Below are positions 49,154 to 57,141 of a stretch of DNA of 64,000 nucleotides, one piece after another. The position numbers and the translations under genes were made by a program. The stretch comes from an uncultured Candidatus Poseidoniales archaeon (GTDB lineage: Archaea > Thermoplasmatota > Poseidoniia > Poseidoniales > Thalassarchaeaceae), in contig CACOAW010000008.1 of NCBI GenBank assembly GCA_902625325.1, forward strand, positions 1-64,000, given 5' to 3'. The stretch's first letter is position 1. Each line of letters begins with the position of its first letter. Below the pieces are notes generated by a model. It ran no database searches, was not told the DNA's origin, and saw only the letters and a list, made by a program, of their open reading frames with translations.

Positions 49154-50137
49154 ATGTCGGTCCTAAACGTCGCTCTTATTGGCTCGGATGAGCTTGCAAG
49201 GAAGCTAGGGAAAAAGGGAGATTCTAGGGACATCGATTCCTATGTCCACAAGGAGACTAGGGATGATGAAATTAGAGTGATTTCCATGCTAAGGCCACTG
49301 AAATTCCCAGATAGCATAAGGCCGTTACTAAGCGTTCTTGACGTTGCGAGGGCAGGAATACTGGAGATTAGCGAGTTAGGTGCTTCGACTGGGGAGGCAA
49401 TGGTTGCATTGGGCTGTGCCGGGATTTCTCGAGGCAAAGCGATAATTTCGCCTAAAGAGGGGTCCTGGATAGACCCCGATCAAGTCAGAGTAATGCTGGA
49501 CCAAGCTGGGCTGTCCGAATGGGGCATTGTGGATGGAGGGGTTGACGAGCATGCTTTGAGGGGTTATCTTTTCCAAGTTCAAGATGAGATGGAGTCCACA
49601 GGTGACCAATCTTCATCACCGCTGATACTACCTGTAGACCAGCACTTCAACGTGAAGGGAGTAGGTCTCGTTGCCATCGGGTACGTTCAGTCTGGTAGTA
49701 TCAGAAAGCACGATGATGTTGTAATTTTGCCTGCGGATGACATTGGGGTGGTCAGGTCCCTGCAGGTGATGGATGATGACGTCGAGAAAGCGATTGAAGG
49801 CGATAGGGTCGGAGTAGCGTTGAGAAATCTGAGAGAGCAATCACTCCACAGGGGGTGCATGATATGTATTCCAGACCAAGGGGGACTGATCAGTCAAGGG
49901 GTCTCTGTTTTCGAAATGACACCGGCACCATTCCAGAAGAAGACACTCGCTGTCGGAGAGGTAGTTCACGCCTCCTCGGACCTGCAGTTCTGTGTGGGCA
50001 GGGTCTCCTCGGTAGAGGGCAGTTCGGTCACAATAGAATGGGGGTCTCCTTTATGGGTAAGGACGGATGGAGGTTCAAAGATACTGATCGTACAGTTGGA
50101 TGCGACCCCGATGAGAATCATTGGTTCAGTCAATTGA
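49154..50137 (+). CDS. EF-Tu/SelB-like protein with degenerate GTPase domain
   Basis: Domain-II-like VDQHFNVKGVGLVAIGYVQSGSIRKHDDVVILPAD...AIEGDRVGVALRNL; N-terminal domain lacks recognisable GxxxxGKT, DxxG and NKxD. Confidence 0.7.
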   Translation: MSVLNVALIGSDELARKLGKKGDSRDIDSYVHKETRDDEIRVISMLRPLKFPDSIRPLLSVLDVARAGILEISELGASTGEAMVALGCAGISRGKAIISPKEGSWIDPDQVRVMLDQAGLSEWGIVDGGVDEHALRGYLFQVQDEMESTGDQSSSPLILPVDQHFNVKGVGLVAIGYVQSGSIRKHDDVVILPADDIGVVRSLQVMDDDVEKAIEGDRVGVALRNLREQSLHRGCMICIPDQGGLISQGVSVFEMTPAPFQKKTLAVGEVVHASSDLQFCVGRVSSVEGSSVTIEWGSPLWVRTDGGSKILIVQLDATPMRIIGSVN

Positions 50138-50299
50138 CTAATCCTGACCAACCTGATTTGTCTGGGCCTCGAAACACTCGAGGCAAATGGCCTTAGCACC
50201 CGGGTACCTGGAGCCATAAGGATCCCCGCACCTCAATTCCCCATTCCCGTCACCCAGGGCTGGTATGATTCTACGACACCCGGGCAGCATGGGATGCAT
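50138..50299 (-). CDS. small zinc-binding protein (about 53 aa) candidate
   Basis: MHPMLPGCRRIIPALGDGNGELRCGDPYGSRYPGAKAICLECFEAQTNQVGQD: four Cys in ribbon-like spacing; ORF open further upstream to 50479. Confidence 0.45.
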   Translation of the reverse strand: MHPMLPGCRRIIPALGDGNGELRCGDPYGSRYPGAKAICLECFEAQTNQVGQD

Positions 50300-50491
50300 G
50301 AAAACCTCGGAGCTTCTAGAGGCGGTCGAGGAGGAACGACTCACCTGAGCCACACTATTCCCATAATCGGAAAATATTAGGTCTTTTCCTACTGGAGTCC
50401 TGCAGTCGAGCGATTCCGGACATCCCGCTTGATTCGGCCTTTCCCGCTTAATATACTTCAGAGAGTATTCTGCTGTCATGGAGGACAGAAC

Positions 50492-50710
50492 TTGAGTGCG
50501 ATTACGACCTTAGTCCAGATCGCCGATAGGTTCGGCCACACCTCTGCAATGATGACCAGGGAAGAAACTCTGGATGCAGTCGCAGAGAATGATGGCGCAT
50601 GGGTCTTCAATGGAAATGGACAGATGGTCCAGCCAGCAGATCTGGCTGAGGCTGATTGGTCGACCGTTGGGACCGTGCGCATTGTGCCTGGACTTGTCGG
50701 TGGACTGTGA
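50492..50710 (+). CDS. ubiquitin-like (beta-grasp) modifier candidate, 72 aa, C-terminus ...GLVGGL
   Basis: TTG start with GGAGG at 50480-50484 seven nt upstream; sequence pattern compatible with a beta-grasp fold; C-terminal Gly-Gly-Leu; followed by E1-like and JAB-like genes. Confidence 0.6.
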   Translation: MSAITTLVQIADRFGHTSAMMTREETLDAVAENDGAWVFNGNGQMVQPADLAEADWSTVGTVRIVPGLVGGL

Positions 50711-50783
50711 TGTAGATCACGACCGACGACGGAGATACGCAAACCCCTGCTGGAAATTTTCATCAGGGTCAGAGGGAGGTGTA

Positions 50784-51461
50784 ATGATGAAGAGTGAGAA
50801 GACTGGGGTTACACTGATTGGAGTAGGCGGGATAGGCTCCAACTTATTGGGGAGCATCGCACCTGCAATATCCTCAGGACCGTTGGTAGAGTCTCTCGGC
50901 GGAATTAGCCTTAGAGTCATGGACTCCGACACAGTGGAAGCGCGTAATCTACTGATGGGGCAGCGATTCCGCCAATCCGATGTCGGCAAGAAGAAGGTCG
51001 ATGCGATCAGAGATGCGGTAGTTGATTTCGAAGGTGGCCTCCTGGATGTTATTTCAATCCCGAAAGATGTCAGAAGCCCCGCTGACATTCCCGATTCTGA
51101 TATCGTGATAGTCTGTGTAGACAATATGGATGCAAGGAGAGTAGTGCACCGAATGGAGGCTCCCTGGTTGGATCTCAGGTGCTCTGGAGACGGGTATATT
51201 GCGATCGACCATAGGGTGGATAGGGGCGTCTTGGCGACTCTGACAGAGGGTCAGAACGGGCATGGTTCATGTCAGCTGGAGGGTTGGGAGTCGGGGTTCG
51301 TCCAGTCCGGTTATATTGCTGCGGCCGCACATGGTTACCAATGGCTGATCGCAGCACTTAGGCAGATGGATGGGATTGCCAGTTCAACGCTTCCGAATCC
51401 TCGCTCCTCAAGCGTTACATTCGGCATTCTTGGAAATCTCGCTTTGGAGGGGGTAGTTTGA
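50784..51461 (+). CDS. E1/ThiF/MoeB/HesA-like adenylyltransferase
   Basis: GVTLIGVGGIGSNLL nucleotide motif, LRVMDSDTVEARNLLMGQRFRQSDVGKKKVDAI, DSDIVIVCVDNMDARRVVH. Confidence 0.85.
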   Translation: MMKSEKTGVTLIGVGGIGSNLLGSIAPAISSGPLVESLGGISLRVMDSDTVEARNLLMGQRFRQSDVGKKKVDAIRDAVVDFEGGLLDVISIPKDVRSPADIPDSDIVIVCVDNMDARRVVHRMEAPWLDLRCSGDGYIAIDHRVDRGVLATLTEGQNGHGSCQLEGWESGFVQSGYIAAAAHGYQWLIAALRQMDGIASSTLPNPRSSSVTFGILGNLALEGVV

Positions 51462-52006
51462 GCCAGTGCGATTCCCGCATAGAGGGTTCGGTGGACCCCG
51501 TATTCCACAAGCCTAGGGACGTTTACCATTCCATAGAAAGAGGGGAGCTTGAGTCAGCTGAGGTTCTTGAGACCATAGCTGCATTGGCTGTGGCAGGTTT
51601 CCGAGGGGAGAGCGACAAGTGGGAGCCTCTCTGGAAGATAGCCGACCAAATGAAGAAAGAGGTGAGTGTGCTAGTCGACCGAGATGGAAACATATGGGTA
51701 GACATTGGAACAAGTGGAGAGGTCAGACTGGCCCCTGCTTTCGGTTCCATAGCTCCTTACCAGCTATGGCTCCATACTCATCCTTTTTCGGCATACGCAA
51801 GTTCTACGGATAGGGAAACTCTGGCTTGCTGCTCGATGATTCTGGAGCAGGCAATAGTCCTAGGACATGACCATCTGGTTTGGATGAGGAGGGACTACTC
51901 AGGCAATCATAGAACGCTGGAAGCGGAAGGTCCACTCTCTACATGGACGACCGACGAGGACATAATCACCTATGATTCGATGCTGGAGGGTTACGATGTC
52001 GAGTAG
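51458..52006 (+). CDS. JAB/JAMM (MPN) metallopeptidase-like protein
   Basis: LWLHTHPFSAYASSTDRETLACC: HxHP...SxxD; TTGA overlap with the E1-like gene stop. Confidence 0.75.
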   Translation: MSQCDSRIEGSVDPVFHKPRDVYHSIERGELESAEVLETIAALAVAGFRGESDKWEPLWKIADQMKKEVSVLVDRDGNIWVDIGTSGEVRLAPAFGSIAPYQLWLHTHPFSAYASSTDRETLACCSMILEQAIVLGHDHLVWMRRDYSGNHRTLEAEGPLSTWTTDEDIITYDSMLEGYDVE

Positions 52007-52235
52007 GATAGATAAGGCTGTGAGTAGGTTGAAGAGGCTTGCCGCAAAATCGAGCGACGAAGATAGTAGGATGAGTGTGAATTCCATGATAGAGGCAGTG
52101 GTCGGGCCTGGCTATGACCAAGAGCTAGAGGCACTAGTCTCGATGGCCCTGAGCTCGTCATCAGAAGCAATGGATCTAGATCAGATTGCAATTGGCATCC
52201 TTTCCCTAGATGATTGGAGAGTCGAAAATTCCTAG
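51996..52235 (+). CDS. small helical hypothetical protein (79 aa)
   Basis: MSSRIDKAVSRLKRLAAKSSDEDSRM...; start overlaps the JAB gene stop; no Cys. Confidence 0.55.
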   Translation: MSSRIDKAVSRLKRLAAKSSDEDSRMSVNSMIEAVVGPGYDQELEALVSMALSSSSEAMDLDQIAIGILSLDDWRVENS

Positions 52236-52467
52236 GTCAGCTCGGACGGGTGCACTTTCTAGACACATAGTTTATAGACAGTCCATACAGACTCTCAATG
52301 CCGCCGAAATTAACCTCCTTCCTGGTATCCATTAAGGGGAAATAGTAGGCAAATTGGACTCCGGATGGTTATCCATCTGGTAACCTCTAAGGGCCGTCGG
52401 GACGCCTTGTGGTGCTCCTGTGTTTGGAGTGATTCAACAAGGAAAATTACGATGTTTAGGGAGATGA

Positions 52468-53445
52468 TTGAGTTTGGGTAATGTAAAGAAAGGCGGTAGA
52501 AAGCCTGATGACATCAGGTGCGATTTTTGTGGATCGAGCGATCTGAAGGATGATTACGAGGTTGGGGAGGTTGTGTGCAATGATTGTGGCCTGGTTGAAT
52601 CCGGTAAATTGCTGGACCCGGCAGGACATTCCAGATTTGGGGAAGATGCTCACAACACTAAATCCTCAGGGCTTGGTTCCAGCATTGGAAAGGGGAGAGG
52701 CCCTAGATCGATAAGAAGAGCCGCCAAGAAGAACAAGCCGAAGAAGAGCTACCTGCAGCAGTTGTACTCACTGGTTGACGAGGTTGTCCCGGAAGGAAGG
52801 ATTAGAGACTCCGTGAAGGACCTCCTGAAGAGATATGACGAGGAGGAGAAGAAACTCTGGAGGCTGCGAGGAAAACTCCGTGGTGACGGGACCCCTGTTT
52901 ACAGGCAAAAGACCCTGGTTGCGGGGGCTATCGCGGCACTGAACATCGCCTACATCCCCAATGAGGCGGGTAAAATCAAGGAGAGATGGCGCATAGACCA
53001 CATTGACTTCGTGAAATCCAGGAAGCGTTTTAGGAACTACATCGCCAGTAATTTCGGGCCAACCGACAGAGAAGGGGTTCGGAACCAGAGACGGAGAGAG
53101 ATACTGCATAACCTAGGGAGGACCAGAGACATTCTCGCTGAGAGTGTCGGCTGGGATATGGCGACAGCTGTATATGAGGAGGCTATTGAAGAGCTGAAAG
53201 AGCACTACGAGCCTGTAGAGGATGATCAAGAGGAGCCTGTGGGTGCCATTCAGAATACCAAGTACGGGACCAAGAGCTCGGAAACCGCAGCATGGGAGGC
53301 TACCCTTGTCGCGATGATCGAACTCGGGCTAGCGGGCTCGATGAGATGGCTGGAAAGGAGGGTGGCCCCGACCTCAGGAGGGAATCTCACCAGCAGGTAC
53401 ATTAGACGAGCAGCTGCACTGGCAAATGGCTCCGAAGAGGAGTAG
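52468..53445 (+). CDS. tfb: transcription initiation factor B (TFB)
   Basis: RCDFCGSSDLKDDYEVGEVVCNDCGLVESGKLLDPAG zinc ribbon, B-reader-like linker GLGSSIGKGRGPRSIRRAAKKNKPKKSY, and cyclin-like repeats. Confidence 0.88.
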   Translation: MSLGNVKKGGRKPDDIRCDFCGSSDLKDDYEVGEVVCNDCGLVESGKLLDPAGHSRFGEDAHNTKSSGLGSSIGKGRGPRSIRRAAKKNKPKKSYLQQLYSLVDEVVPEGRIRDSVKDLLKRYDEEEKKLWRLRGKLRGDGTPVYRQKTLVAGAIAALNIAYIPNEAGKIKERWRIDHIDFVKSRKRFRNYIASNFGPTDREGVRNQRRREILHNLGRTRDILAESVGWDMATAVYEEAIEELKEHYEPVEDDQEEPVGAIQNTKYGTKSSETAAWEATLVAMIELGLAGSMRWLERRVAPTSGGNLTSRYIRRAAALANGSEEE

Positions 53446-53447
53446 CC

Positions 53448-55358
53448 TCACGTAATGTGTTCGTCTGTCCCGGGTAGGAGGTGGCCTATTCCGGGGTTCA
53501 TGCGCTCCCAGTAAACCCATATTGGATCCACGATTACTCTTACTCTGCCATTGGCCATCAATCTCGGCTCAAGCATCTCTGATATCTCTTCTACTGCCCC
53601 TCCCAGTTCCCTCTCGCCGGTACCTAATCGGATGTATATCCTGGTGACGCCCCTGACATTCTCTTCGTCTCTGTCCCTTGTCCACCCTGCGGCATCCAGC
53701 ATCCTGTACAACACCAGCCGATCCGTGATGTTGCGTGTCGAGAATGTCGTTTCACAGTCGTCGAATGTGACATTCGGCATACCATCCCGATTCATGGCCG
53801 TGAATGTCAACCGGCTACCCAAGGGGAGCCGGAGGAGAACAGAGAAGAGGCGGGGGAACGATTCCGTCACCCTGCGCCTTTCCTGCTCTACCGTGTTGGC
53901 CCGCAGAAGCTGACGTAGCTCCATCGCTCTGTTGTGCATTTGGACCTCTGGATGAATTGGATCACGGGGGCGATTCCTCCGGATATGCTGACTCAACGTG
54001 TTGATGTGCCTTTGACTCACCATGTCATCCAGTAGAGATAGGGTGATGGAACCCAAGGCATCCCCGAGGACCAGTCGCCTGAGCTGGGGCGTCTCAACGA
54101 TGCAAATGGAGTCGTTGTGGAATGCCATTCGCTGTCTCATTCGTGCCCATCCATTCCCGAGATGCGCCTGACTGGTGTCTCGATTACCTAGGCCTCTGAC
54201 AACGAATCTAGTGTTGTGACCCCCTTTTCCGGGTTGTATTGCGTATCTCAGACCGCTGGTACCCTGGACTACAATGCGGTCCGACTCCAAGTCAAGGCTT
54301 GCTCTCTCGTTGTTCTCGATGACCTCCCTGAGGAAGCGCATACCGTTGATGTCGCTCCCTCTAACACTGTTCATCCTAGTTTCGGCGAAGATGTGCTGTT
54401 GAAGGGTCCGCAGTCTCTTGTTGTCTTCGTGGTCGATTGGGCTTAGTACCCAGGTTACCACGGTCTCCCATGTCCTTGGGTCGCTCTCCAGCTCGATACG
54501 CTTCCAACCAGTGTCTCTCCTGACCCTCAGAAATAGCTTACCGCTCCTTTCAACTATTGCCACCGGGACTTTGAGGTCCTCCGCTCCCATTCTCCTGGTC
54601 GCCTTATTCCCTATTGAGTCCCACCTGGAAAGCCACTCTGTCCCTCTGAATGTGCTTTTCATCGGGTACCGGGGCCTCAACCCCGGTGACCGTCGTCGCA
54701 ACATCTCCATCATCATGAACTCGTCAACGACGTTGAAAGCCACCACTTGCGATGCAGGATGAAGAATTGGCGAGTCCGGGCCACCACCTCTGGGTTGCAT
54801 CCTCATCTGGGTTGCTGCCAGATCAATTGAACGCAGAAGCTGCTTCCACTGGGTCCTAACCGAAATTCTCGGATGGCGAGAGAGTATCTTGTTGAGGCCC
54901 CTGTATGGAACTCGGCATGGGTGCCCATCGACGAAGAATGTCCCTGCTGCGAAAGACACGTGGGTTCCATCCGGCAGGATCCCTCCTCTAGCTAGTCTTC
55001 TGGAGACGGAATCCTCAATTCTGTGCGTCCTCCAATGCAATATTGCCTCCATTTCTTCATCGGATAGCTCCCACCTTGGAGGTTCTCCGAAGGTCCATTC
55101 CGATTCCTCTTTCAAGCAAGGGAAGGGTTCTGGGTTGTTTTTCGAACCGAAAGCTCGTAGTCTCCTCCATATCTGTTGAATGTTGCTGGTGGGGTTTTGT
55201 AGCTCCTGCCGGAAGCTGCTGATAACGTCCTCGTCTTGGATTACCCCGGTAAGCTGACCTGCGATGTGAGGGGCGATCAGTCGACAAGTGTCGCACATCT
55301 TTCCATCGCACTCGACCTCCTTGCAGCACTCACAAAGGAGGTCCTCTCTGGATGTCAT
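53448..55358 (-). CDS. large hypothetical protein with N-terminal Cys cluster
   Basis: LCECCKEVECDGKMCDTC; RIVVQGTSGLRYAIQ motif shared with the adjacent upstream gene; ATGA overlap with it. Confidence 0.75.
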   Translation of the reverse strand: MTSREDLLCECCKEVECDGKMCDTCRLIAPHIAGQLTGVIQDEDVISSFRQELQNPTSNIQQIWRRLRAFGSKNNPEPFPCLKEESEWTFGEPPRWELSDEEMEAILHWRTHRIEDSVSRRLARGGILPDGTHVSFAAGTFFVDGHPCRVPYRGLNKILSRHPRISVRTQWKQLLRSIDLAATQMRMQPRGGGPDSPILHPASQVVAFNVVDEFMMMEMLRRRSPGLRPRYPMKSTFRGTEWLSRWDSIGNKATRRMGAEDLKVPVAIVERSGKLFLRVRRDTGWKRIELESDPRTWETVVTWVLSPIDHEDNKRLRTLQQHIFAETRMNSVRGSDINGMRFLREVIENNERASLDLESDRIVVQGTSGLRYAIQPGKGGHNTRFVVRGLGNRDTSQAHLGNGWARMRQRMAFHNDSICIVETPQLRRLVLGDALGSITLSLLDDMVSQRHINTLSQHIRRNRPRDPIHPEVQMHNRAMELRQLLRANTVEQERRRVTESFPRLFSVLLRLPLGSRLTFTAMNRDGMPNVTFDDCETTFSTRNITDRLVLYRMLDAAGWTRDRDEENVRGVTRIYIRLGTGERELGGAVEEISEMLEPRLMANGRVRVIVDPIWVYWERMNPGIGHLLPGTDEHIT

Positions 55359-57106
55359 TCTCCTTCCCCACCCATTCCCTCTGGGAAATTACGCACGTTC
55401 TCCAGCATCTCCTGAATGGTAGAGCCAGACCATCGAATTCCGTTTTCCTCTGGGGCCTCGTAAGGGGGGTCGTCGAACAAATCAGGAGGCATCTCCTCGA
55501 AAACAACATCGGGTTCCTCCTCCATAATGTCCGGGGTTGGTGGGTCCTCTTGCCAGAACTCTGGATCCGGCTCTGGCTCCTCGAACATATCGCCTTCCTC
55601 AAACATCTCAAAGTTGCTTGAGACGCACTCCCACCAGGCATCGAGGTCCCCATTGAATTCGAAGCTCTCGTTGGTGAACTCGCATACGCGCAATAGTTGT
55701 TCAACGGTGAAGATGCTGTTCCTCGAGGTAGTGTCATGCCTTAGGGCTAGAACATAGCTAGCACAAATGTCACCTGCTGGCAAATCGATGCCACAGACCT
55801 TCTGTGAATCTATGCAAATCATGATCCCTTGACACCCTGGCTTGGAGATATGGGCCTTGCTCGGGTATGCGGTTACGTAGAACTTTACTCCATTTGAAGG
55901 GAAGCCTTCGATGTGATATGCTAGACCTGAGGTGCCGGTGACCCATATCCCAGAATGCTCGCCCGACTTCGTCATAGCGGCCTCTGAAGAGGAGCTTGGT
56001 TCCAATGAGTCGATTGTTTCCCTTAGTAATCTGGATGACTTCATCTGCGGAGGCGAGGGTGTCCACTCCGAGCTCATTGACTCCCAGACCCAGAACAGGT
56101 GCTTCGCGAAGTTCGCGCCCTCAGTCCCCTCCGGGAACATAAGAGAGTGGATAAGGCACCTCCATATCTTAGGATTTACAGATACTGGAATAGTCGTTGG
56201 AGTCCCCGACCTCAGGATTATCATTCTGAGCCTGAGCCTCTCATCAACTACCAGTCTTGGATGGATTGTGACGCGATGTAACCTTCGGAATTCCTTCTCA
56301 TCCGCTCTTCCGATTATCTTCTGCCATTCTGAGGAGGCCTCCCCGCCAAATCTGGAAATTACCGTCGGGGATGTCCGCGCGATGTATCCAGGTGAGCGAT
56401 TCAATGAGGGGTCCCTCCCAGAAATCATCGATATCGTGTGCAGGAAGGGGTGTGGTTTTGCTCCGGGGAATTCCATAGTGATAGCGTTGCTAGGTGCATC
56501 TATTGCATCCCAGCCTCGACTAAGGAGATGCTGTGGCCATGATTCTGGAGGGAGGTTCAGAGGCATCGTAACGCAGCAATTACTCATCGCGATAAGGAGC
56601 TCCTTCCATGACCTGATGGCGCCTACCCTCTCCGAGTTGGATAGCCAATCGCAGATATCCGCCAATGGCAGCGGCCCCTTGAGCTTTTTACCGTCAATGT
56701 CCATTTCCCCATCTGGTGCTACGTTCAGATGACTCAGTTCACCGAAGTTAGGTATGGGATATGAGCCCATAAGCATCCTCTCACTCATCGATATTTCCAA
56801 TCTGGCACGGTCCCACCTATCTGAGACGTGCAAGGAGAGGTTACCAACACCCCCACGAGATGACTTGAATCCGTCGGGGAGGCTGTTCTCGTTGAACCTC
56901 TCGGCTAGGGCTAGGGTCATCTGTTCGGAGGATAAGCCCCTTGCATGATCTATGAATCTGCTTGCTGCCTCCCTATCCTCCAATGTAGGGATCTGAGAAG
57001 AATCGAGAGCGAGGAATGGCATTTGCAAAGCCATGCATGCTGAGCATTTTTCCTGGGATTCTGAAGGGGCATCCAGGCCGCACCAACCCTTGCAAGGAAC
57101 AGGCAT
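55355..57106 (-). CDS. large hypothetical protein with N-terminal Cys motif, divergent paralogue of the downstream gene
   Basis: CKGWCGLDAPSESQEKCSACM; GIWVTGTSGLAYHIE motif. Confidence 0.75.
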   Translation of the reverse strand: MPVPCKGWCGLDAPSESQEKCSACMALQMPFLALDSSQIPTLEDREAASRFIDHARGLSSEQMTLALAERFNENSLPDGFKSSRGGVGNLSLHVSDRWDRARLEISMSERMLMGSYPIPNFGELSHLNVAPDGEMDIDGKKLKGPLPLADICDWLSNSERVGAIRSWKELLIAMSNCCVTMPLNLPPESWPQHLLSRGWDAIDAPSNAITMEFPGAKPHPFLHTISMISGRDPSLNRSPGYIARTSPTVISRFGGEASSEWQKIIGRADEKEFRRLHRVTIHPRLVVDERLRLRMIILRSGTPTTIPVSVNPKIWRCLIHSLMFPEGTEGANFAKHLFWVWESMSSEWTPSPPQMKSSRLLRETIDSLEPSSSSEAAMTKSGEHSGIWVTGTSGLAYHIEGFPSNGVKFYVTAYPSKAHISKPGCQGIMICIDSQKVCGIDLPAGDICASYVLALRHDTTSRNSIFTVEQLLRVCEFTNESFEFNGDLDAWWECVSSNFEMFEEGDMFEEPEPDPEFWQEDPPTPDIMEEEPDVVFEEMPPDLFDDPPYEAPEENGIRWSGSTIQEMLENVRNFPEGMGGEGE

Positions 57107-57141
57107 CAGTAGTAATTGTACTTCTGGACTATATGAAGCGG

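Follow-up and report, generated by a model that had tools for sequence, protein, structure and literature searches.

What do two large, cysteine-bearing proteins do beside the genes of a ubiquitin-like (Ubl) conjugation system in a Poseidoniales archaeon, and do they belong to that system at all? The window, by which is meant the whole 64,000-nucleotide stretch of DNA that was analysed, contains these two proteins, termed here A and B, in a module that also encodes a Ubl, an E1-like enzyme, a JAB peptidase, a small protein and a relative of the transcription factor TFB.

The Ubl module

50138–57141, the whole module of 7.0 kb (Ubl, E1, JAB, 87-aa protein, TFB-like protein, A and B)
50492–50710, plus strand, ubiquitin-like protein of 72 aa with a TTG start and the tail ...PGLVGG-L
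50784–51461, plus strand, E1-like ThiF-fold protein of 225 aa (Pfam ThiF, 5e-15) with the invariant pair S162-C163
51458–52006, plus strand, JAB/JAMM peptidase of 182 aa with invariant E..HTHP..S..D (from the alignment; Prok-JAB is matched in relatives)
51972–52235, plus strand, 87-aa protein, kept behind JAB in several genera
52468–53445, plus strand, TFB-like protein with a TFIIB zinc ribbon; its cyclin part is strongly diverged

The Ubl has no confident match in Pfam, ThiS being the best at E 0.044, and its tail is a GG followed by one residue in eight of ten relatives. Cys163 of the E1 is invariant in all 14 aligned sequences, two PRTRC-type ThiF proteins among them, and the closest NCBIfam model is PRTRC_ThiF, at 52.3 bits against a cut-off of 144.75. 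The JAB protein keeps an intact JAMM motif in the alignment. A 327-aa protein at 49154–50137 of the window is related to the translation GTPases (SelB/EF1A) and resembles them only beyond the G domain.

Proteins A and B

53448–55358, minus strand, protein A, 636 aa
55355–57106, minus strand, protein B, 583 aa
55355–55358, minus strand, 4-nt ATGA overlap of the B stop and the A start
55284–55334, minus strand, N-terminal CECC...CDTC motif of A, metal-binding-like
57035–57094, minus strand, N-terminal motif CKGWC...CSAC of B
53829–54395, minus strand, core domain of A, residues 322–510
55592–56089, minus strand, core domain of B, residues 340–505
54102–54104, minus strand, codon of the invariant Cys419 of A
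55814–55816, minus strand, codon of the conserved Cys431 of B

The two genes are coupled, with B first and A second, and both reading frames, their lengths and their ATGA overlap are as an earlier note on this DNA had described them. The same is true of the N-terminal cysteine motifs, CECCKEVECDGKMCDTC starting at residue 9 of A and CKGWC...CSAC at residue 5 of B, and of the convergent arrangement with the TFB-like gene, the end of which (53445) faces the 3′ end of A (53448). The proposal that A and B are diverged paralogues with a common core was borne out by BLASTP, which aligns them across some 400 residues at E = 1e-8 and thus beyond chance. Moreover, a single domain profile finds A (E = 4e-43) and B (E = 2e-40), although both proteins are members of that profile, such that their retrieval is a consistency check.

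Neither A nor B has a match in Pfam, NCBIfam, PHROG or among PDB sequences. In other words, the family that the earlier note could not recognise is still without a name, and the clear match to a known, unrelated family that it had listed as a refutation was not found. Family and PDB sequence searches with the core domain, with the short types of the family and with c40 (see below) yielded nothing usable. Designed ‘Cake’ propellers, which came up with low PDB E-values, were rejected as the sum of many weak repeat copies, each with E > 100.

From their sequence, the N-terminal cysteine motifs presumably bind zinc, giving each protein a zinc-finger-like part. A RING normally requires eight ligands, and A and B show a four-cysteine motif only; in a search for a RING or zinc-finger E3, RING family matches did not rise above noise.

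A core domain with a single conserved cysteine

The shared segment reported earlier proves to be part of a core domain of some 160 aa. Across 57 cores, which share about 20% identity, G-x-S-G-x-x-Y, C-I, G-D and a later D are the only positions that are nearly universal. The core cysteine is kept in all 56 of the rows that are readable at this position, while cysteine occupies at most 16% of the rows in every other column of the core; a single conserved cysteine in the domain is also what is seen in E2 enzymes. By strict pattern, 41 of 50 relatives carry paired N-terminal CxxC...CxxC motifs, and several of the remainder have near-variants.

Relatives were sought in 195 Poseidoniales genomes, where the family comprises full-length relatives of A, relatives of B, short versions of ca 350–545 aa that adjoin Ubl genes (type C) and truncated B forms of ca 245 aa (type D). 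In a phylum-wide genome search, relatives were confined to Poseidoniales among the matches listed, and the metagenome-assembled genomes that carry related genes are named Ca. Poseidoniales and Thalassarchaeaceae. The coupled B–A order recurs in genera g1, g3, g5, g6, g9 and g11. In a tree of the 57 cores, a branch of moderate support (83/68) sets all A-type rows, which come from both Poseidoniales families, apart from types B, C and D. Since all A cores fall on one side, the A/B split would predate the divergence of the two families, provided that the drawn root is right, which supports the ancient duplication that had been suggested. Further core-domain proteins of ca 250–300 aa occur in the second Poseidoniales family, away from E1 and from A (for example G002:C1:625525-625914 and G022:C4:199270-199671).

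Association with the Ubl module

Across the 195 genomes, the core domain and the E1 occur together in 94, the core alone in 13, the E1 alone in two and neither in 86. The 13 core-only genomes are incomplete, and the two E1-only genomes (G094 and G101) both carry c40, a homologous protein within the operon, such that all 96 E1-positive genomes hold the domain. A phylogenetic profile independent of the Ubl operon, which the earlier note had named as a refutation of its proposal, was thus not found. When occurrences were permuted 500,000 times within genera, holding genus frequencies fixed, the joint count had a mean of 79 and a maximum of 89 and never reached that observed; the relatedness and incompleteness of the genomes limit what the P value of this procedure can mean but leave the one-sided pattern unaffected.

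Some genomes encode the c40 protein, of some 230–250 aa, between Ubl and E1 or as a fusion behind Ubl. It bears the core motif W..ICL....WPGD..., and its match to the core profile has an hhalign E of 1.9e-11 and a score of 76, where 23 control families score 19 or less. The core domain or c40 is found within 8 kb of the E1 in at least 26 genomes, and in other lineages a core protein stands directly beside Ubl, E1 and JAB (L089–L091, L097 and L105), that of L105 being directly upstream of a Ubl-Ubl-E1 fusion. Two fusions may be recorded here: a c40 core protein fused to Ubl and adjoining E1 and JAB (L104:8762-9841, G094), and two Ubl domains ahead of an E1-like domain in one protein (L105:7180-8418, G127).

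Of 12 genomes sampled in the genus, four carry the block of the window. A close relative, G042, has an empty site, in which the whole 7.0-kb block is missing and the flanks abut; its dihydrouridine synthase and EF-like genes overlap by 4 nt, these being the genes that the block separates in the window, and its flanking genes are 73–80% identical to those of the window. The block has therefore been gained or lost as one unit. Its ends show no obvious target-site duplication.

The earlier note had suggested that A and B form a heteromeric complex, possibly on the adaptor or target side of the Ubl system. Co-occurrence and the empty site uphold the link to that system, and we consider it very probable that both proteins serve the Ubl module. 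With regard to a complex, what was seen is the conserved coupling of B and A. As for an adaptor or target role, a Ubl-carrying, E2-like role is at least as likely, given the invariant cysteine and the E2-like order of secondary structure described below.

Resemblance to E2 enzymes

In several respects the core resembles an E2 (UBC fold, Pfam UQ_con). Its invariant cysteine has hydrophobic flanks, ICI here as against ICL in E2s, and its genes are partnered with those of Ubl, E1 and JAB, a genetic partnership that E2s also have with Ubl and E1. In the predicted structure of the B core (pLDDT 86.7, pTM 0.83), DSSP gives the order helix a1, four-stranded meander, cysteine and helices a2, a3 and a4, in other words the helix and beta meander before the cysteine and the three helices after it that characterise an E2. 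Residues 334–486 of A show the same E2 element order, in a comparison of order only, with three-dimensional packing left aside. Between the core cysteine and the end of a2 there are mostly 25–28 residues, a spacing similar to that in UBE2D3, for which we count 27.

In other respects A and B differ from E2s. They have large extra regions and N-terminal cysteine pairs, and an HPN-like histidine beside the core cysteine is absent, the sole column with histidine in more than 30% of rows being core position 66, far upstream. Fold matches are weak. In the Foldseek search of A, E2s take PDB ranks 1–3 and about 20 of the best 50 rows, all with E > 1, but these rows are mutually related and amount to few independent events; the best PDB E is 1.1 and TM values on E2s do not exceed 0.36. 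The first named match in a viral library is likewise an E2, at E 1.1, while for the isolated B core E2s appear only at ranks 31 and 45, after unrelated folds.

Profile comparison gave no support. With hhalign, the core or c40 scored 10–14 against eukaryotic E2s and Prok-E2_D, which is the level of the controls, whereas the two E2 sets match one another with a score of 37 (the sequences of the eukaryotic set were entered by hand, and aligned as expected). Pfam E2 families did not match A, B or the core, and no UQ_con or Prok-E2_D protein scored above the Pfam cut-off in the genomes searched. The core family may work like an E2, but its membership of the E2/UBC family is unsupported by profiles, and it is not filed as an E2 in view of the profile comparison and the weak fold matches. 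Given the invariant cysteine, the E2 element order and the failure to find known E2 families, an E2-like Ubl carrier is nevertheless the reading that we favour.

The TFB-like gene and other genomic partners

In the window the TFB-like gene sits between the Ubl operon and A, and A adjoins such a gene in both Poseidoniales families. The profile of the TFB-like family matches the TFIIB zinc ribbon with E 4.5e-8 and the TFB cyclin domains weakly. In many genomes A lies with TFB-like and AddA/B-like genes, far from E1, and other genera have a conserved block in which A is joined by a thioredoxin-like gene, the TFB-like gene and AddB/AddA-like genes. This arrangement suggests the TFB-like protein as a candidate partner or target. 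In L078, L084, L085 and similar loci, the genes of the conserved block are PTH2-like, beta-eliminating-lyase-like, A, thioredoxin-like, TFB-like, AddB-like and AddA-like. The thioredoxin-like gene had been grouped with the core family by single-linkage clustering; this is taken to be an artefact, as the gene has no direct match to A or B. A role in defence was set aside, PADLOC having matched only generic E1 and helicase models.

Proposed role and alternatives

Tentatively, A and B are regarded as two dedicated members of a Poseidoniales-specific family that belong to the Ubl-E1-JAB conjugation module and would most likely do the job of an E2 there. In such a scheme, the E1 would activate the Ubl and hold it on its own conserved cysteine, from which the Ubl would move to the invariant core cysteine (Cys419 of A, Cys431 of B). 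A or B would then hand the Ubl to a target, steered by the zinc-finger-like N-terminal part and the long flanks, with the TFB-like protein as a candidate partner or target in this transfer. JAB would both trim the Ubl precursor, which ends in GG and one residue, and take the tag off. A and B probably act as a pair that is made from a single coupled transcript. The pairing, the thioester chemistry and the substrate are what we infer from these data, and the E2-like catalytic role is put forward with corresponding reserve. A more specific form of the proposal, which we think rather unlikely, is a lineage-specific cysteine transferase, unrelated in sequence to known E2s and with its own zinc-finger region, that replaces the E2 (and perhaps the E3) step, with the A–B pairs specialised for different targets and one of them linked to TFB.

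A and B could instead be non-catalytic receptors, scaffolds or main targets, with the E1 alone loading and transferring the Ubl, as has been described for SAMPs, the core binding E1 or Ubl and the cysteine being structural. This is a serious possibility, albeit not a probable one: both proteins are large, with long non-core regions, they lack an E2 profile match, and the co-occurrence and common block fit equally well. Moreover, SAMP conjugation in other archaea is reported to be E2-independent (PMC11354881), which means that the Poseidoniales module does not have to include an E2. Against it, the cysteine is, besides two Asp, the sole near-universal reactive side chain at ca 20% identity, and the compact c40 sits within the operon, between Ubl and E1.

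The recurrence of A beside the TFB-like gene in both families, often with AddB/AddA-like genes too and with the E1 operon elsewhere, together with the zinc ribbon retained in the TFB-like family, would also suit proteins that act chiefly with the TFB-like protein in transcription, or with an AddA/B-like nuclease, the Ubl machinery being a co-travelling regulator. We regard this as improbable, since genomes retain the core only if they retain the Ubl E1, apart from the 13 exceptions in incomplete genomes, and paralogues without the neighbours of A adjoin E1/JAB. Least probable is that the genes are chance neighbours or passengers of a mobile island that do not cooperate. The patchy distribution and the empty site of G042 are what an island could leave behind, but the association survives several gene orders in two families, including adjacent paralogues and Ubl fusions, and co-occurrence persists where the genes are unlinked; taken with the empty site, this makes mere proximity unlikely.

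Relation to known systems

The PRTRC, or class 6d, operons consist of Ubl, Prok-E2_D, JAB and ThiF (Iyer et al. 2006, PMC1779556). The Poseidoniales module shares with them the Ubl, a JAB with intact JAMM and a ThiF-like E1 that is closest to PRTRC_ThiF and has the same invariant Ser-Cys. It differs in that Prok-E2_D is found in none of 12 genomes tested here, in that its E1 stays below the PRTRC cut-off, and in that A, B, c40 and the TFB-like gene do not belong to the PRTRC set. Archaeal systems that have E1, E2 and E3 are described from Aigarchaeota and Asgard lineages (PMC5654768); as in the Ub-E1-E2-RING-Rpn11 clusters of Caldiarchaeum and Asgard archaea, the Poseidoniales operons combine a Ubl, an E1 and a JAMM protease with further proteins, but the E2 and RING of those clusters are recognisably eukaryote-like (PMC5654768), and no such E2 or RING is recognisable in the Poseidoniales module. 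With the SAMP/UbaA system of Euryarchaea the module shares activation of a Ubl by an E1-like enzyme, although the E1 of the window is not UbaA (23.4 bits against a cut-off of 450). The bacterial BilABCD system has Ubl, E1, E2 and JAB within one operon (PMC11354881), a gene set that, compared by description only, resembles the module; the CEHH motif described for BilB was not seen here.

What is new is a lineage-specific component inside a known kind of system. If the proposed role is correct, the Poseidoniales, archaea of the surface ocean, would have in this Ubl-E1-JAB module, with its dedicated family of cysteine-bearing proteins, an archaeal solution apart from the others, and one that offers a defined test of whether the E2 step arose more than once or diverged past recognition by sequence. 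The recurrence of the TFB-like gene also prompts the question whether archaea control transcription initiation through such tags.

Possible viral relatives

A tblastn search of phages with A and a short relative found nothing. The best Foldseek matches of A are two unnamed viral proteins in BFVD, A0A516LSW3 and A0A516M0H5 (416 and 441 aa), which, at E 0.02–0.03, are possible viral relatives.
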